This document shows, one piece after another, positions 28,501 to 38,048 of a DNA stretch of 64,000 nt; positions within the stretch are counted from its first letter, which is position 1; every line of letters begins with the position of its first letter. This stretch comes from Acidilobus saccharovorans 345-15. GTDB taxonomy: Archaea > Thermoproteota > Thermoprotei_A > Sulfolobales > Acidilobaceae. The stretch lies in NCBI RefSeq assembly GCF_000144915.1, contig NC_014374.1, forward strand, positions 620,001 to 684,000, in the 5' to 3' direction. The notes under the pieces were generated by a model. It saw only the letters and a program-made list of their open reading frames with translations, was not told the DNA's origin and did no database searches. A program made the translations under genes and the position numbers.

Positions 28501-30927
28501 TTGAGTCGCGCGCACCTAATAATAGTCCTGTTGGCGTTGATCCTCCTGGCGCCTCAGCAGCACGCTGCAGGCCTCCACGTTAGCAGGCCATCGGTGCCGA
28601 GGCTTCCCGTGATGCCTTTTCCTGAGGCCGCCACTGAGAATGCCGTTGGGATAAACGACAACGGCACAGCGCTCGTTAACGGCAGCCAGGTTAACTACTA
28701 TTACACAACCCGCTCCCTGCTGGGTGTCTTCAACTTCTACGGCGGCTCCTTCTACTCTGGTCCGCCGGTGAACGCTAACTGGTCCTCAGTGCAGCTCAAC
28801 GCCAACCTCAACGTGACCCCTGACGTGGTGCTCTGGGCCCAGGACGTGATACATATCTACGCGGCGGGCAACGGCACATACTACGTGGAGATAGAGGACA
28901 ACCTGTGGAACGCGACTAACAACCTGTGGAACGCGACTAACAACCTGTGGAACGCGACTAACAACCTGTGGAACGCGACTAACAACCTGTGGAACGCGAC
29001 TAACAACCTGTGGAACGCGACTAACCCTGCAGTGCTCAGCGCCAGCGGCAACGGGAACATAAGCAGCTATCATGGTGAGCAGTACTACGCCTATACCTAC
29101 CCAGTTCAGTTTGAGAGCAGCGAGCCGTTCCACGTCTACGTCATGATGAACGTCAGCGTCAACGCCGCCATGGAGCCGGTCATATACATGTACTTCAGGT
29201 TCGTCAACTCGACCTACGACAGCGGCTGGGTGCTCTACGACACCATAACAGCTAACGAGACCGCGTTCAACGACAACCCGACCTTCCTCGCGGGCAGCGT
29301 GCCCGGGGTGGCCAGCAACGGCTACCCATACGTCATACAGTTCGTCACGGCCGGCTGCGGGGAAGGGTCAACGCTCTACGCCTACTCCTGGGACGCCAGC
29401 ATGATGCTTTACTACAGGTACGACGGCAGGTTCTACGCCGTGCCGGGGGCCTTCTCCCTGGAGCCGTACAACTTCTCCGGCGGCGTGACGGCCGAGAACG
29501 TCAGCGCGGTGCAGGGCATAGCGGAGTACTACTATGACGGCCTCGTGTACCAGCTATCCGGCAGCAGCTACCAGGAGGCCCTGTGGCAGGCCTCGGCAAG
29601 CAGCTACTCGCCGGCCCCGAACGAGGTCTCCGTTAACCTGACGCCGGCCGGCGCCCTGTGGGTCGTGAGCGTCATGGGCGTGAACGTGAGCTTCTCAAGT
29701 ACTGTGGCGGTGACGTCGCCCCAGGCCCTGATTCAGGTGCCCTCCGGCGAGTACATCGTTACCGCAACCCTCTACGCCGGCAGCAGCCCGGTGTACTCCT
29801 TCAGCTCCGAAGTGGCCGTGGCGGGCATGCAGCAGGTGATAGCGCTTAACGTGAGCTCGCAGACGCCGTTCATATACAACGGGCAGATGTTCATGGCGGG
29901 CAACTACACTTTCTACTCGCAGCAGCCCTTCGTGGCGAACTTGACCTTCGTAGCCTACATGCCGTCGGCAGGCATCAGGGTGCTCCCCAGCGAGGTCCTG
30001 GTCAACGGCACCCCTGCGCACGTCACCTCGCTCCTGCTGGCGGTCAACGGCAACACCACTGTGGTAGAGGGGGCCGTGCTGCAGTACTACGTCAACCTGA
30101 GCCAGCCTGTCCCTGCTAACGTTAACGGGATCAACGCCACGCTGACCAGCGGCTGGTACAACGCCTCGACAAGGATAATCATATACAGGTACTTCTACAT
30201 CGGCGAGGCTGAGAGGCTCTACGTCAGCCCGGAGATGATAGTCATCAACCTGAGCTCCCCGCTCACGCTGCCCCTGAGGCCCGTGCTGCAGTACTACGTG
30301 CACATATCGCTTCCCAACGGGACCATCAGCGGCTGGTACGCAAACGGCACCGTGATAAGGCCGCCCGAGGTGATATACGTCAACGGCTCCGCCAGGTACG
30401 TGCTCCAGGTCGGCGGCCCCCTCGTCGTTGACTCCCCGGTGAACGAGACCCCGGCCTACCAGCTGCAGGTGCTCGTCAGCTACGCCCTGCCCAACGGGAC
30501 TGCGTTCGTAGGCTGGCTACCGCTGGGCTACACGCTCAGGTTCCCAACAACAATAAACGTGAGCAGCGGCGTGTCCTACGAGCTGGTGTCTCCTGAGGAG
30601 GTGGCCGTCACCTCGCCTGGGGCCATAGTGGTCGAGTACTCACCCAGGTTCCTGGTCACAGTGACGTACGCCAACGGCACCACCAGGAGCTTCTGGGCGC
30701 CGCAGGGCTACACGGTTAAGCTTGAGGCGCCCGCCCCGCCGCTCCACGCCGTGAGGTGGGTCGGCACCCTGGACCTCCCCAACGGCGCCTCGGTTAGCGT
30801 GGGCGAGCCCATGGCTGAGAGGGAGGCTGTAACCATCAACGCGGCCGAGGTCGGGGGGCTGGGGGCCGCGGCCGTCGCAGTAGCGGTCGTCGCTGTGGCG
30901 CTCCTGCTGCTGAGGAGGAGGCCTTAG
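28501..30927 (+). CDS. Thermopsin-family (A5) acid protease with tandem NLWNATN repeats
   Basis: An 808-aa exported protein. A signal peptide (about 1-24) is followed by a thermopsin-like domain (about 45-390): NYYYTTRSLLGVFNFYGGSF, VVLWAQDVIHIYAAGNGTY, IEDNLWN (the family's DNxWN motif), and a segment equivalent to the family's glycine-rich DAELV region (IQFVTAGCGEGSTLYAYSWD). Thermopsins are extracellular acid peptidases of thermoacidophilic archaea. Residues about 134-175 are six exact copies of NLWNATN. The C-terminal half has beta-sandwich repeats ending in a single membrane helix and RRR tail (LLLLRRRP), so the enzyme is cell-bound. Sequons are abundant. Confidence 0.85.
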   Translation: MSRAHLIIVLLALILLAPQQHAAGLHVSRPSVPRLPVMPFPEAATENAVGINDNGTALVNGSQVNYYYTTRSLLGVFNFYGGSFYSGPPVNANWSSVQLNANLNVTPDVVLWAQDVIHIYAAGNGTYYVEIEDNLWNATNNLWNATNNLWNATNNLWNATNNLWNATNNLWNATNPAVLSASGNGNISSYHGEQYYAYTYPVQFESSEPFHVYVMMNVSVNAAMEPVIYMYFRFVNSTYDSGWVLYDTITANETAFNDNPTFLAGSVPGVASNGYPYVIQFVTAGCGEGSTLYAYSWDASMMLYYRYDGRFYAVPGAFSLEPYNFSGGVTAENVSAVQGIAEYYYDGLVYQLSGSSYQEALWQASASSYSPAPNEVSVNLTPAGALWVVSVMGVNVSFSSTVAVTSPQALIQVPSGEYIVTATLYAGSSPVYSFSSEVAVAGMQQVIALNVSSQTPFIYNGQMFMAGNYTFYSQQPFVANLTFVAYMPSAGIRVLPSEVLVNGTPAHVTSLLLAVNGNTTVVEGAVLQYYVNLSQPVPANVNGINATLTSGWYNASTRIIIYRYFYIGEAERLYVSPEMIVINLSSPLTLPLRPVLQYYVHISLPNGTISGWYANGTVIRPPEVIYVNGSARYVLQVGGPLVVDSPVNETPAYQLQVLVSYALPNGTAFVGWLPLGYTLRFPTTINVSSGVSYELVSPEEVAVTSPGAIVVEYSPRFLVTVTYANGTTRSFWAPQGYTVKLEAPAPPLHAVRWVGTLDLPNGASVSVGEPMAEREAVTINAAEVGGLGAAAVAVAVVAVALLLLRRRP
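28900..29025 (+). repeat. Six perfect 21-bp in-frame tandem repeats
   Basis: Six identical 21-bp units, each encoding NLWNATN with an NAT glycosylation sequon, sit at the conserved thermopsin DNxWN position. Identity at DNA level means the array is recent and likely unstable in copy number. Confidence 0.97.
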
Positions 30928-33892: not shown

Positions 33893-33988
33893 AGGGAGCC
33901 GATGCCAACCTCTGGCGGCCCCCGCGGCCCTCAGGCACCTTAAGCTTTAGGCTTCAGCTCAAATCCCTGGCCCGCCCACTGCCCGCCA

Positions 33989-34675
33989 GTGAAAGCCTTG
34001 AGGGTCGCTCACGGCCTCATGAGCCTGGGCCTGCTCACAGTTGCACTCTCAGCGCTGACCCTTGACCTGTCGCCCGCCCTCCTCACGGCCGTAGCCCTTG
34101 GGCTCGCCACGGTGTTCGCCGCGAACTTCGCCCTCTGGAGGCCCCGCTCGCCGGCCTCCGTGGCCTTAGCAGCAGCCTTAGCAGCTGCATACGCGCTCGC
34201 CGGCCCCAGGGTGCTCGCGGCCTCGGTGCCCGCGGGCGTTGCCATGCTCTCCTCGTGGGCGCTGGAGCTGGCAAGGAGGAGGGACGCGTCAACGGTCCTG
34301 GGCTCCCTCGGGGTCTCGCTGTTGATCCTCCCCCTGGCGTCCCTGGGCAGAGGGGTCCCGGCGGGCATAGCCATCGCCTGGGCGTCCTCGGCCCTGGCGG
34401 TCTCGCTGGCCGCCCTGGGCGTCGTGAAGGAGGCGAACAGGGCCAGGGCCACAGCGCTCTCAGCTGTGACGGCGGCCGCCGGCGCGGCCCTTGACTTGGC
34501 TCTCGGGTGCCACGCCTGCGCCTTAGCCCTGGCGCCGCCGGCCGCGCTCACAGCCGCGCTGAGCAGGACCTCGCTAAGGGACCTTGGGCCGAGGCCCCTC
34601 AGGAGGCTCGGCGTGATCTCCGCGGCGGCGTCCGCCGCCTCCTTCGCTGTCCTGGCCGCCGTGGAGCTCCTCTAG
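33989..34675 (+). CDS. Alanine/leucine-rich polytopic membrane protein
   Basis: A 228-aa protein with about seven hydrophobic segments separated by short basic loops. The start MKALRVAHGLMSLGLLTVAL recalls the HG-containing first helix of YwiC-like membrane proteins, but similarity is too weak to assign. Composition is extreme in Ala/Leu. It is convergent with the Bat-type regulator, and their 3' ends overlap by about 100 bp. Confidence 0.6.
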   Translation: MKALRVAHGLMSLGLLTVALSALTLDLSPALLTAVALGLATVFAANFALWRPRSPASVALAAALAAAYALAGPRVLAASVPAGVAMLSSWALELARRRDASTVLGSLGVSLLILPLASLGRGVPAGIAIAWASSALAVSLAALGVVKEANRARATALSAVTAAAGAALDLALGCHACALALAPPAALTAALSRTSLRDLGPRPLRRLGVISAAASAASFAVLAAVELL

Positions 34676-35340
34676 CCACCTGCACGCTATGTCGTCCGGC
34701 CCCTCGCTGAGCCCCCTGCTCGAGAGGTACCAGCCTATGACCTTGAACAGCGCCTTCCTCAGGTTCTCGCTGAGCGTCGCGGGTGAGACGCCGAGCTCCT
34801 TAGCAACGTCAATTAGCCTGGCCCTCCTCTCCGGGCAGAAGGCCCCCATCCTGTAGGCAGTCAGGAGGGCGGCCAGCTGCGCCTGGGAGAGGGCCGGCTC
34901 CCTTAGGCAGTCAGGAGGGCGGCCAGCTGCGCCTGGGAGAGGGCCGGCTCCCTGTAGGGCTCCCTGGAGAGGACCCTGGGACTGAGCCCCCTCTGCTCCA
35001 GGGCCTCAAGGACGCTGCCGAGCCTGTTCCTGTGGACGATTATATCATAAACTACCGCGTCGCCGCCCTCCGACCTCCCCCCGAGGACTATGACCCCCAG
35101 CTCAGAGAGCGCCCTGCACGCCGAGCAGCTGGACGTCGTCACGAGGTATAGGCTCCGACCTATCTTAACCCTCCTCAGGCCCCTCAGCTCCTCCTCGTCC
35201 TCGACCTCGACGAGGTGGGTTGAGAGCCCCCTGCTTGCAGACATCCTCACAATACTGAAGCCTCCCCTGCCCCCGAGCGCCTTGGCTACCTCGCAGTCGT
35301 GCCTCGTTAGCCTTACCCTGACCCTGAGCGCGCTTACCAA
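34574..35340 (-). pseudogene. Bat/HTH_10-type regulator interrupted by 50-bp tandem duplication
   Basis: The minus strand from TTG 35340 encodes an N-terminal sensor-like domain (VSALRVRVRLTRHDCEVAKALGG; a cysteine pair in TTSSCSACRALSELG) and the start of a PF04967 HTH_10 domain (LSQAQLAALLTA), then a stop at 34903. Deleting one copy of the duplicated 50 bp continues in frame as YRMGAFCPERRARLIDVAKELGVSPATLSENLRKAL, the complete HTH. No other lesion is present, so one reversible event breaks the gene. It is divergent from the nitric oxide reductase and is its likely regulator (inference). The 3' end overlaps the convergent membrane-protein gene. Confidence 0.85.
34854..34953. repeat. Perfect 50-bp tandem duplication inside regulator gene
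   Basis: Copies 34854-34903 and 34904-34953 are identical. Because 50 is not a multiple of three, the duplication shifts the frame and places a TAA immediately at the junction. Loss of one copy would restore the regulator. Confidence 0.97.
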
Positions 35341-35347
35341 ACGCCTC

Positions 35348-35361
35348 CCTAAAATTTTAGG
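35348..35361. promoter_or_regulatory. 14-bp perfect palindrome in regulator/NO-reductase gap (operator candidate)
   Basis: cctaaaattttagg is an exact inverted repeat. It is 8 bp from the regulator start and about 48 bp from the TTG of the NO reductase gene, directly abutting a TATA-like gttataatg (35361-35369). The position fits an operator through which the HTH_10 protein could act on both genes. Confidence 0.6.
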
Positions 35362-35409
35362 TTATAATGTTAATCCCAGTTAAAGCCCTTAATGAAATTG
35401 GTGAGCTGA

Positions 35410-37632
35410 TTGAGCCTCAGGCGTGACGCCCTGCCCGTCCTCTTGGCCATAATAGTGGTGTTCGCGTTCTCAGGAGCGCTCTTCGCCTACACGTTCTCCA
35501 GGCTCCCGCCCGTGCCTCCGGCGGTCGTGACCCAGAACGGCACGGTCCTCTTCACGAGGCAGCAGGTGATAATGGGCAAATACTACCTCCAGAAGTACGG
35601 CCTGATGGACTACGGCTCCATAGAGGGGATGGGGGCGTACTTCGGGGTCGACTTCACCTCCTACACCCTTGAGCTCTACGAGCTCTACCTGGCCCAGAGG
35701 CTCAACCTGACGGTCTCGTATAAAGGCGGGGTCCCTGTCCTGCCGCCGTCTGAGGCGGCCGAGGTCAAGAGGCTCATCCTTGACCCAGGGGGCACGATGA
35801 GCTGGGGCAGGAACTACACCGTAAGCGACTACATGTTGGGCGCCTTCAACTACGCCGTGGACCTCTACTCCCAGTACCTCGGCCAGAACTCCTCGGAGCT
35901 CAGGCTGAGGCCCGACTTCATAACTAACAGGACCGTGGTGAGGGACCTCGTGGCATACTTCACGTGGAGCGCCCTCATATCACTAAACAACTACACCCAG
36001 GGGTTCCCCTACATGCCCGGCCTGACGTCGCCCTCCACGAACGCCTGGGCCGCGACCATGATAATGATAGCGGCCATACTGGCAGTGGGCTTCCCGGTGG
36101 GGGCCTTCATAGTCAGGGACCTGGTCTCCCACTGGAACGACCCACTGCTAAAGGTCGACCTTCCATCCCCGGGCCCGGCACAGAGGGCCGTCATACCATT
36201 CATGGTACTCCTCATGGTGGCCGCCGGCGTTCAGGGCCTCCTGGGCACGTACCTCATGCACCTATATGCAACCCAGTCCCTCTACGGCCTCGACCTCATC
36301 GGCCTCCTCCCCTTCAACGTCGCCAGGGCCCTCCACATATGGCTGGCGATATACTGGATAGCTCTCACCTGGGTGGCGTTCTCCCTCTTCGTGCTCCCCT
36401 ACTTCGGGGTCGAGCTTTCGAGGAGGAAGGTCATAGCAATAATGGGCTTCCTCTCAGCCGTAGCGGTGGCCTCGCTTGCAGGGGTCTGGCTCGACTACCT
36501 AGGCTATGTGCCCTTCAGCTCGGGCCCCGTTGAGCCGTGGTTCATGTTTGGTGCGGAGGGGAGGGACGTAATAGAGGTCGGCTCGCTCTGGCTGCTTCTC
36601 ACAGCAGTTGGCGTCTTCTACCTCTCCTACCTCTTCCACAGGGCCTCAAGGCTGGCCGCCGAGCCCCTGAGGCCATTCGCCAGCGTGCTCTCCTACGTGC
36701 TGGCCGGCTTCGGGGTGGGCGTCGTCGTGGGGGCCCTTCCTGTGGTGAGGCCCTGGCCGTACTTCACCGAGGACGAGTTCTTCAGGTGGATATTCATACA
36801 CGCCGCCGTCGAGGGCTTCTGGCCCTCCATAGTGATAACGGTCCTCGCGGTCCTCCTCGTCGTCAGGGGCCTCATACCCGCCGGCCTCGCCAGGTCGGTC
36901 GTAATGATTGACGCGGTGACCGAGGTCATAACTGGTATGATAGGGGCCGCCCACCACTACTACTGGACTGGCTTCCCGGCCGTCTGGATGTACGTCGGGG
37001 CAGCGCTGAGCATCCTCGAGGCAATACCGCTTGGCTTCGCCATGGCATACGTCGTACTAGTCGCCAGGAGGGCCGGCACGCTGGGCACGCTGACCTCCTT
37101 TGACAGGACGCTGCTGACCCTCGTGCTGGTCGCTGGGATAGGGGGAAGCATGGGCGTCGTCTTCCTCGGGGCGGGGCTCATAAACGCCCCAATAGTTAAC
37201 TACTACGTCCACGACCTCCAGTACACGATGGCCCACGCCCACGCGGCGTTCCCGCTCGCCTACGGGCTGCCGAGCATAACGATGTGGTTCGTGGCCCTGT
37301 ACCTGGCAGGCCACGTGAGGGAGTCCCACCTGAAGTACATAAGGCTCGGGGCGATAGGCTACGGGGTCGGCTTCTACCTCCAGGCCCTCCTCTCCCTCGT
37401 GCCGCTCGGCGTCCTGCAGACCGTCTACGAGCTGAGGTACGGCTTCTGGTACGCGAAGACAGTCATAGTGCCGTCAGTCGGCCTCGACCCAGCCCCAGGC
37501 TTCTGGGAGACTCGGTTGGCGCAGCTGTTCATATGGCTCAGGATGCCGGGCGACCTGACGGCAGCGGCCTCGTTCGCGATAATAGTGGTGCCCATGGCCC
37601 TGGACTGGGTCCTCTCAAGGAGGTCCACCTAA
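35410..37632 (+). CDS. norB: Quinol-dependent nitric oxide reductase (qNOR)
   Basis: A 740-aa membrane protein. An N-terminal anchor and extracellular cytochrome c-like fold lacking heme-binding cysteines (about 30-205) precede twelve or so membrane helices of the heme-copper family. Heme/FeB ligands are visible: RALHIWLAIYW (His 309), FIHAAVEGFW (His 464, Glu 468), GAAHHYYWTGFP (His 515, 516) and TMAHAHAAFPLAYG (His 609, 611). The N-terminal fusion identifies qNOR, which reduces NO to N2O with quinol electrons. The second Glu of the usual HxxxEGFxE motif is Pro (472). The likely role is NO detoxification. TTG at 35410 has ggtgag upstream. Confidence 0.92.
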   Translation: MSLRRDALPVLLAIIVVFAFSGALFAYTFSRLPPVPPAVVTQNGTVLFTRQQVIMGKYYLQKYGLMDYGSIEGMGAYFGVDFTSYTLELYELYLAQRLNLTVSYKGGVPVLPPSEAAEVKRLILDPGGTMSWGRNYTVSDYMLGAFNYAVDLYSQYLGQNSSELRLRPDFITNRTVVRDLVAYFTWSALISLNNYTQGFPYMPGLTSPSTNAWAATMIMIAAILAVGFPVGAFIVRDLVSHWNDPLLKVDLPSPGPAQRAVIPFMVLLMVAAGVQGLLGTYLMHLYATQSLYGLDLIGLLPFNVARALHIWLAIYWIALTWVAFSLFVLPYFGVELSRRKVIAIMGFLSAVAVASLAGVWLDYLGYVPFSSGPVEPWFMFGAEGRDVIEVGSLWLLLTAVGVFYLSYLFHRASRLAAEPLRPFASVLSYVLAGFGVGVVVGALPVVRPWPYFTEDEFFRWIFIHAAVEGFWPSIVITVLAVLLVVRGLIPAGLARSVVMIDAVTEVITGMIGAAHHYYWTGFPAVWMYVGAALSILEAIPLGFAMAYVVLVARRAGTLGTLTSFDRTLLTLVLVAGIGGSMGVVFLGAGLINAPIVNYYVHDLQYTMAHAHAAFPLAYGLPSITMWFVALYLAGHVRESHLKYIRLGAIGYGVGFYLQALLSLVPLGVLQTVYELRYGFWYAKTVIVPSVGLDPAPGFWETRLAQLFIWLRMPGDLTAAASFAIIVVPMALDWVLSRRST

Positions 37633-37685
37633 CGCTTTAGGCTAGCCCATTTTAACCATAACCCATACCTCCTTTTGGGATCAGC

Positions 37686-38048
37686 TTGAGGGTAATGGTG
37701 GCCAGAGTTTACGAGAGCCGCGAGGCCGGCGGCTGCCTCGCAGTCCTCGCCGAGAGGCTCTGGCCAAGGGGCGTCAGCAGGGAGGAGCTCAAGGTGGACG
37801 TCTGGCCAAAGGAGCTCACGCCCTCCGACGAGCTGAGGAGGTGGTTCTCCCACGACCCAGCCAAGTGGGAGGAGTTCAAGTCAAGGTACTTCAGGGAGCT
37901 CGACTCCCGCCGGGAGGCGGTCAAGGAGCTCTGCTCGAGGATAAGGGAGAGGGGCTGCGCTGTACTCCTTTACTCGGCCAGGGACAGGGAGCACAACAGC
38001 GCGGTGGCGCTGGCTGAATACCTTCAGAGGGCCTGCCAGGAGGCGTAA
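37686..38048 (+). CDS. DUF488 family protein
   Basis: A 120-aa soluble protein matching DUF488 from end to end: VYESREAGGCLAVLAERLWPRGVSREEL, KELTPSDELRRWFSHDPAKWEEFKSRYFREL, and CAVLLYSARDREHNSAVALAEYL. The function is unknown; a redox or nucleic-acid link has been proposed for relatives. It starts at TTG 37686, 53 bp after the NO reductase stop, on the same strand. Confidence 0.9.
   Translation: MRVMVARVYESREAGGCLAVLAERLWPRGVSREELKVDVWPKELTPSDELRRWFSHDPAKWEEFKSRYFRELDSRREAVKELCSRIRERGCAVLLYSARDREHNSAVALAEYLQRACQEA

Follow-up and report, generated by a model that had tools for sequence, protein, structure and literature searches.

The window, that is, the whole 64,000-nucleotide stretch of Acidilobus saccharovorans 345-15 DNA analysed here, carries a regulator gene of the HTH_10 family on its minus strand and, divergent from it, an intact gene for a quinol-type nitric oxide reductase (qNOR/NorB, 740 aa; 35410–37632, plus strand). 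The reductase has a COX1 core (PF00115, 1.1e-27) fused to the NorB cytochrome c-like N-terminal domain (PF22085, 1.2e-20), which has no CxxCH motif, and shares 61% identity with its homologue in a Caldisphaera-type genome (G007). It is followed by a gene for a 120-aa protein with a DUF488 domain match (DUF488-N3i; 37686–38048, plus strand). On the opposite side, a small membrane protein gene (33989–34675, plus strand) is convergent with the regulator; Caldisphaera-type loci share this arrangement, and the corresponding ORFs show weak sequence similarity. The gap between regulator and qNOR contains a perfect 14-bp palindrome, CCTAAAATTTTAGG (35348–35361), found as this exact sequence once in the genome. 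Directly downstream of it lies a TATA-like TTATAATG (35362–35369, plus strand), whose position was compared with relatives and which is a possible qNOR promoter element.

The regulator gene is interrupted by a perfect tandem duplication of 50 bp, the two copies of which (34854–34903 and 34904–34953) are identical at 50/50 positions; the period-50 identity stops at their borders. The N-terminal reading frame (34903–35340, minus strand, 145 aa) begins with a TTG start at 35340, runs to 34906 and ends in a TAA (34905–34903) placed exactly on the copy junction, and contains the sensor part with C16, H42, C72 and C75 together with the first HTH helix. The C-terminal part (34574–34903, minus strand) lies in a shifted frame that goes on through the second copy and contains a complete HTH_10 domain (PF04967, 48.1 bits against a curated Pfam cut-off of 23.1). 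The home genome thus has no continuous reading frame for the regulator. Because both halves retain the conserved residues of the family, the duplication is the only disabling lesion. An earlier note on this DNA had made that claim, and had also described a Bat-type (HTH_10) gene divergent from qNOR with a 14-bp palindrome in the gap; all of this is confirmed by the present analysis. The note held that deletion of one copy restores a complete helix–turn–helix; the domain is, however, already complete in the downstream frame, and the duplication has instead cut it off from the start codon and the sensor part. The downstream frame also continues for about 33 residues past the end of its relatives (34574–34699) and overlaps the convergent gene, which may be natural or stem from the loss of a stop codon; an overlap is also present in Caldisphaera-type loci.

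A family profile search found the regulator family spread across the class. Intact homologues match PF04967 with 52.6–65.3 bits, and the broken gene is the only PF04967 match in the home genome, in which no second copy of the regulator scored above threshold. Pfam scans of the window protein and of intact homologues detected neither a PAS nor a GAF domain, and these proteins are therefore distinct from Bat proper, in which both domains precede the HTH. In all 12 family sequences compared (12/12), Cys15, His42, Cys76 and Cys79 are invariant, corresponding to C16, H42, C72 and C75 of the window protein, and this Cys-His-CxxC arrangement suggests a metal or Fe-S site. The SSCSAC pair (residues 70–75) had been put forward in the earlier note as a sensing site; its SCSAC cysteines do belong to the conserved Cys3-His set, which may respond to NO or redox state. 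With conserved N-terminal cysteines and no PAS or GAF domain, the protein is of the NarO/DmsR type, as judged by the presence of cysteines. For an intact homologue, the predicted model (mean pLDDT 86.7) has N-terminal tandem ferredoxin-like folds and a C-terminal HTH, which superimposes on an archaeal transcription factor (8hno_A) with an rmsd of 1.5 over 52 residues. The structural neighbours of the sensor part are common ferredoxin-like or ACT-like folds (NikR, ACT domains, EF1B; Z 7–9), so no function was read from them, and a search of the PDB by sequence returned nothing convincing.

Intact homologues are divergent from qNOR, with a palindrome in the gap, in three genomes (G007, G019 and G042) of the Caldisphaera type, which is another genus of the same family. 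Within the genus of the sequenced strain itself, three other genomes were searched, and both the regulator and a full qNOR are missing from them. Elsewhere the regulator has other neighbours: in many Sulfolobaceae-type loci (f11) a DUF488 gene lies directly upstream of it, and other loci contain hemerythrin genes (PF01814, 4e-20). The regulator is a member of a subfamily within Thermoproteota that has an invariant Cys-His-CxxC set and is encoded beside qNOR, hemerythrin or DUF488 genes. In two loci, hemerythrin-domain genes (L126:1633–2190, with the PF01814 match, and L166:819–1367) lie between qNOR and the regulator with an operator-type site upstream, and their products are candidate NO-stress repair proteins. 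A family of 345–377-aa membrane proteins (L041:4860–5990, L017:9826–10920 and L158:2306–3340) often adjoins the regulator, also with such a site upstream, and is possibly heme- or NO-related; NnrS was considered as an identity for it and rejected, since there was no Pfam match and a direct search with PF05940 gave nothing meaningful.

The palindrome in the gap is conserved as CCTAA-N4-TTAGG, with the counterparts CCTAAAAGGTTAGG, CCTAAAAGATTAGG and CCTAATATATTAGG in the three Caldisphaera-type gaps. Class-wide, 21 exact sites were found in 16 of 30 regulator loci, a set that includes some close relatives. In the same 30 loci, 29 other distinct orders of the arm bases gave a mean of 0.14 sites and a maximum of 1, and other spacers from 0 to 11 gave 0 sites. 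The sites precede genes for qNOR, hemerythrin (PF01814), DUF488, ferredoxin and small membrane proteins, mostly 34–60 nt before the start codon and beside a TATA-like sequence. The home genome has 3 exact sites, of which 2 flank qNOR: the palindrome in the gap and CCTAACGCTTTAGG (37628–37641), 44 nt before the DUF488 start. The third (G000:C1:322786–322799, locus L121) lies close to where a 502-aa ORF on the minus strand begins. An operator-like site with 9/10 arm bases, CCTTAAGCTTTAGG (33938–33951), is found 37 nt before the small membrane protein ORF at 33989, and the homologous position in G007 carries a perfect site. In two genomes in which no qNOR was detected, the operator precedes a gene for a ferredoxin of 116–119 aa that adjoins the regulator (L137:575 and L138:618), and the regulon may therefore be wider than NO reduction.

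CCTAA-N4-TTAGG is thus the probable operator of the HTH_10 regulator, a pairing drawn from co-location. Alternatively, the palindrome and its copies could be bound by another factor, for example of the Lrp or TrmB type, with the HTH_10 protein as a mere neighbour. Co-location leaves room for such a factor, and some regulator loci have no exact site: none was found near the Vulcanisaeta regulator (L039) or in the loci L042–L044. Nevertheless, the regulator is accompanied by the site in several families and beside different target genes, with one spacing only, and the five-base arms and N4 spacer of the site resemble the haloarchaeal motif CGAAYATDKTYG; we consider binding by another factor unlikely.

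The proposed pair of regulator and operator was compared with known systems. Bacterial NO regulons, governed by NorR, NsrR or DNR, have norB and hemerythrin-type repair proteins among their targets; the target set is alike here (an NO reductase and a hemerythrin-domain protein), but the regulator family is unrelated. Bat of Halobacterium salinarum shares with the present family the HTH_10 domain and a site just upstream of the TATA region, which is where the bop UAS lies. It differs in that Bat contains PAS and GAF domains (PMC11218638), neither of which Pfam detected here. Closer precedents are NarO of Haloferax volcanii, which is without PAS and GAF, and the bacterioopsin-activator-like gene E6P09_00735 in the nirK-nor cluster of Haloferax mediterranei, where the promoter motif CGAAYATDKTYG was described (PMC11218638). 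These proteins share with the present family the bacterioopsin-activator-like HTH, the lack of PAS and GAF, and a place in or near denitrification (nor) genes, and the haloarchaeal motif shares the design of two inverted arms around a short spacer. In contrast, the organisms differ, the operator here is CCTAA-N4-TTAGG and the sensor is Cys-His-CxxC; the neighbours are hemerythrin and DUF488 genes instead, and in many of the genomes the stretch examined contains neither a nitrate nor a nitrite reductase. In the literature searched, which covers a minority of subscription papers, we found no description of an HTH_10 regulator of NO genes or of an NO-detoxification regulator in Thermoproteota, and the control system around the broken regulator appears to be undescribed.

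Taken together, we think it likely that a nitric-oxide-related regulon is present at this locus and that its regulator has recently been knocked out in the sequenced strain. In this strain, a tandem duplication between 8-bp direct repeats 51 bp apart, with one base missing, would have given a 50-bp repeat that shifts the frame and places a stop on the junction; the predicted product, 145 aa long, consists of the sensor part and has no usable HTH. The intact protein of relatives is an HTH_10 regulator of the Bat/NarO kind, in which the Cys-His-CxxC set is invariant and the sensor part has tandem ferredoxin-like folds; its probable operator, CCTAA-N4-TTAGG, lies just upstream of the TATA region of the qNOR, hemerythrin, DUF488 and small membrane protein genes. 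The sensor part may bind a metal or an Fe-S centre, with which NO or a redox signal would react and through which the Cys-His set would sense NO or the redox state, and the HTH_10 protein would bind the palindrome and activate the promoters. Activation, as opposed to repression, is suggested by the site just upstream of the TATA region and by the haloarchaeal precedents of the family, and the response of the regulon to NO is inferred from its gene content (qNOR, hemerythrin and DUF488). Since the regulator should be absent from the sequenced strain while the sites are kept, qNOR and DUF488 would be uninduced there, or constitutive if the regulator is a repressor.

The edges of the duplication point to the way in which it arose. 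The duplicated stretch is flanked by an 8-bp direct repeat, CCTGTAGG, at 34850–34857 and 34951–34958, with a spacing of 51 bp in the single-copy state; in this genome, a direct repeat of at least 8 bp at such borders occurs at about 1.3e-3 of random positions. Because the edges lie in this repeat, the duplication looks like a microhomology-mediated event, and because one base is missing at the junction, the stored repeat measures 50 bp instead of 51. A 51-bp event alone would be in frame, so it is the one-base loss that breaks the gene. The missing base could instead be a sequencing or assembly error, in which case the real allele would be a 51-bp in-frame duplication that inserts 17 residues before the HTH, and the gene would be unbroken and the regulator made with the insert. 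The spacing of the flanking repeats, exactly the 51 bp that a clean microhomology event would give, and the lack of decay in either half are consistent with a slip at the junction. However, the missing base lies outside any homopolymer, the genome is a single closed contig, and a true one-base loss at the junction explains the data equally well; overall, we judge an error improbable. The natural reading is a microhomology-mediated duplication with loss of one base at the junction, which, as both halves keep their conserved residues, would be recent. A mutation of this type, with one duplication at an 8-bp direct repeat that shifts the frame, is ordinary. In Sulfolobus acidocaldarius, large deletions and duplications make up ~10% of spontaneous pyrE mutations (PMC7785828), and tandem duplication belongs to the ordinary classes of spontaneous mutation in a related crenarchaeon (PMC7785828, PMC3139894). 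The simplest reading is that the break in the regulator is probably an ordinary, recent loss-of-function mutation.

The earlier note had gone further and proposed a phase switch, in which cells gain or lose the 50-bp copy and so turn the regulator off or on in part of the population. Collapse of the exact copies would in principle restore the frame, both halves are free of decay, and reversion by copy loss is possible, although a recent lesion is not the same as one that is reversible in practice. The comparison with relatives argues against this proposal. The regulator is open and single-copy at all comparable full-length places (33/33) in 30 other genomes, in which no conserved slippage element was found at the gene, and no tandem repeat in the gene was found among the 34 loci examined. 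Nor does the home genome offer a second case. A scan of its complete 1,496,453 bp (a single closed contig) for perfect tandem repeats with periods of 10–300 bp identified the 50-bp duplication as the one with the longest period; just four such repeats have a period of at least 15 bp, and this one alone is not a multiple of 3. Phase-variable tandem-repeat genes also undergo frameshifts by tandem repeats, but known switches use short, high-copy tracts, whereas we found a single two-copy duplication that is absent from all relatives and has no sign of repeated gain and loss; one sequence, moreover, is unable to show switching. A phase switch is therefore very unlikely, and we give slightly less credence still to its broader form, in which a hyperthermophile would hedge its bets by reversibly switching the master regulator of its archaeal NO-stress regulon. 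Least probable of all is cooperation between the two halves, whether a programmed −1 frameshift at the stop fuses them or the sensor and HTH proteins are translated separately. In its favour, the two frames would be joined by a −1 shift at the junction, and the downstream frame holds a complete HTH_10 domain. However, the junction (ACT GCC TAA) is no slippery heptamer, no start codon (ATG, GTG or TTG) is available in the downstream frame until position 34849, which is already within the HTH domain, and the exact duplication accounts for the layout without such cooperation.

With the duplication read as an ordinary mutation, it is the regulon around it that merits further attention. The HTH_10 regulator with its Cys-His-CxxC set and the CCTAA-N4-TTAGG site form a concrete, testable candidate pair of regulator and operator that is common to several families and also occurs in Sulfolobaceae-type genomes, where genetics is possible. 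The sequenced strain, as a putative natural regulator knock-out with its operators in place, would be a useful strain for comparison. Finally, the window has just one further long and perfect tandem array, at 28898–29025, where six perfect in-frame copies of a 21-bp unit encode NLWNATN repeats in an 808-aa secreted-looking protein.
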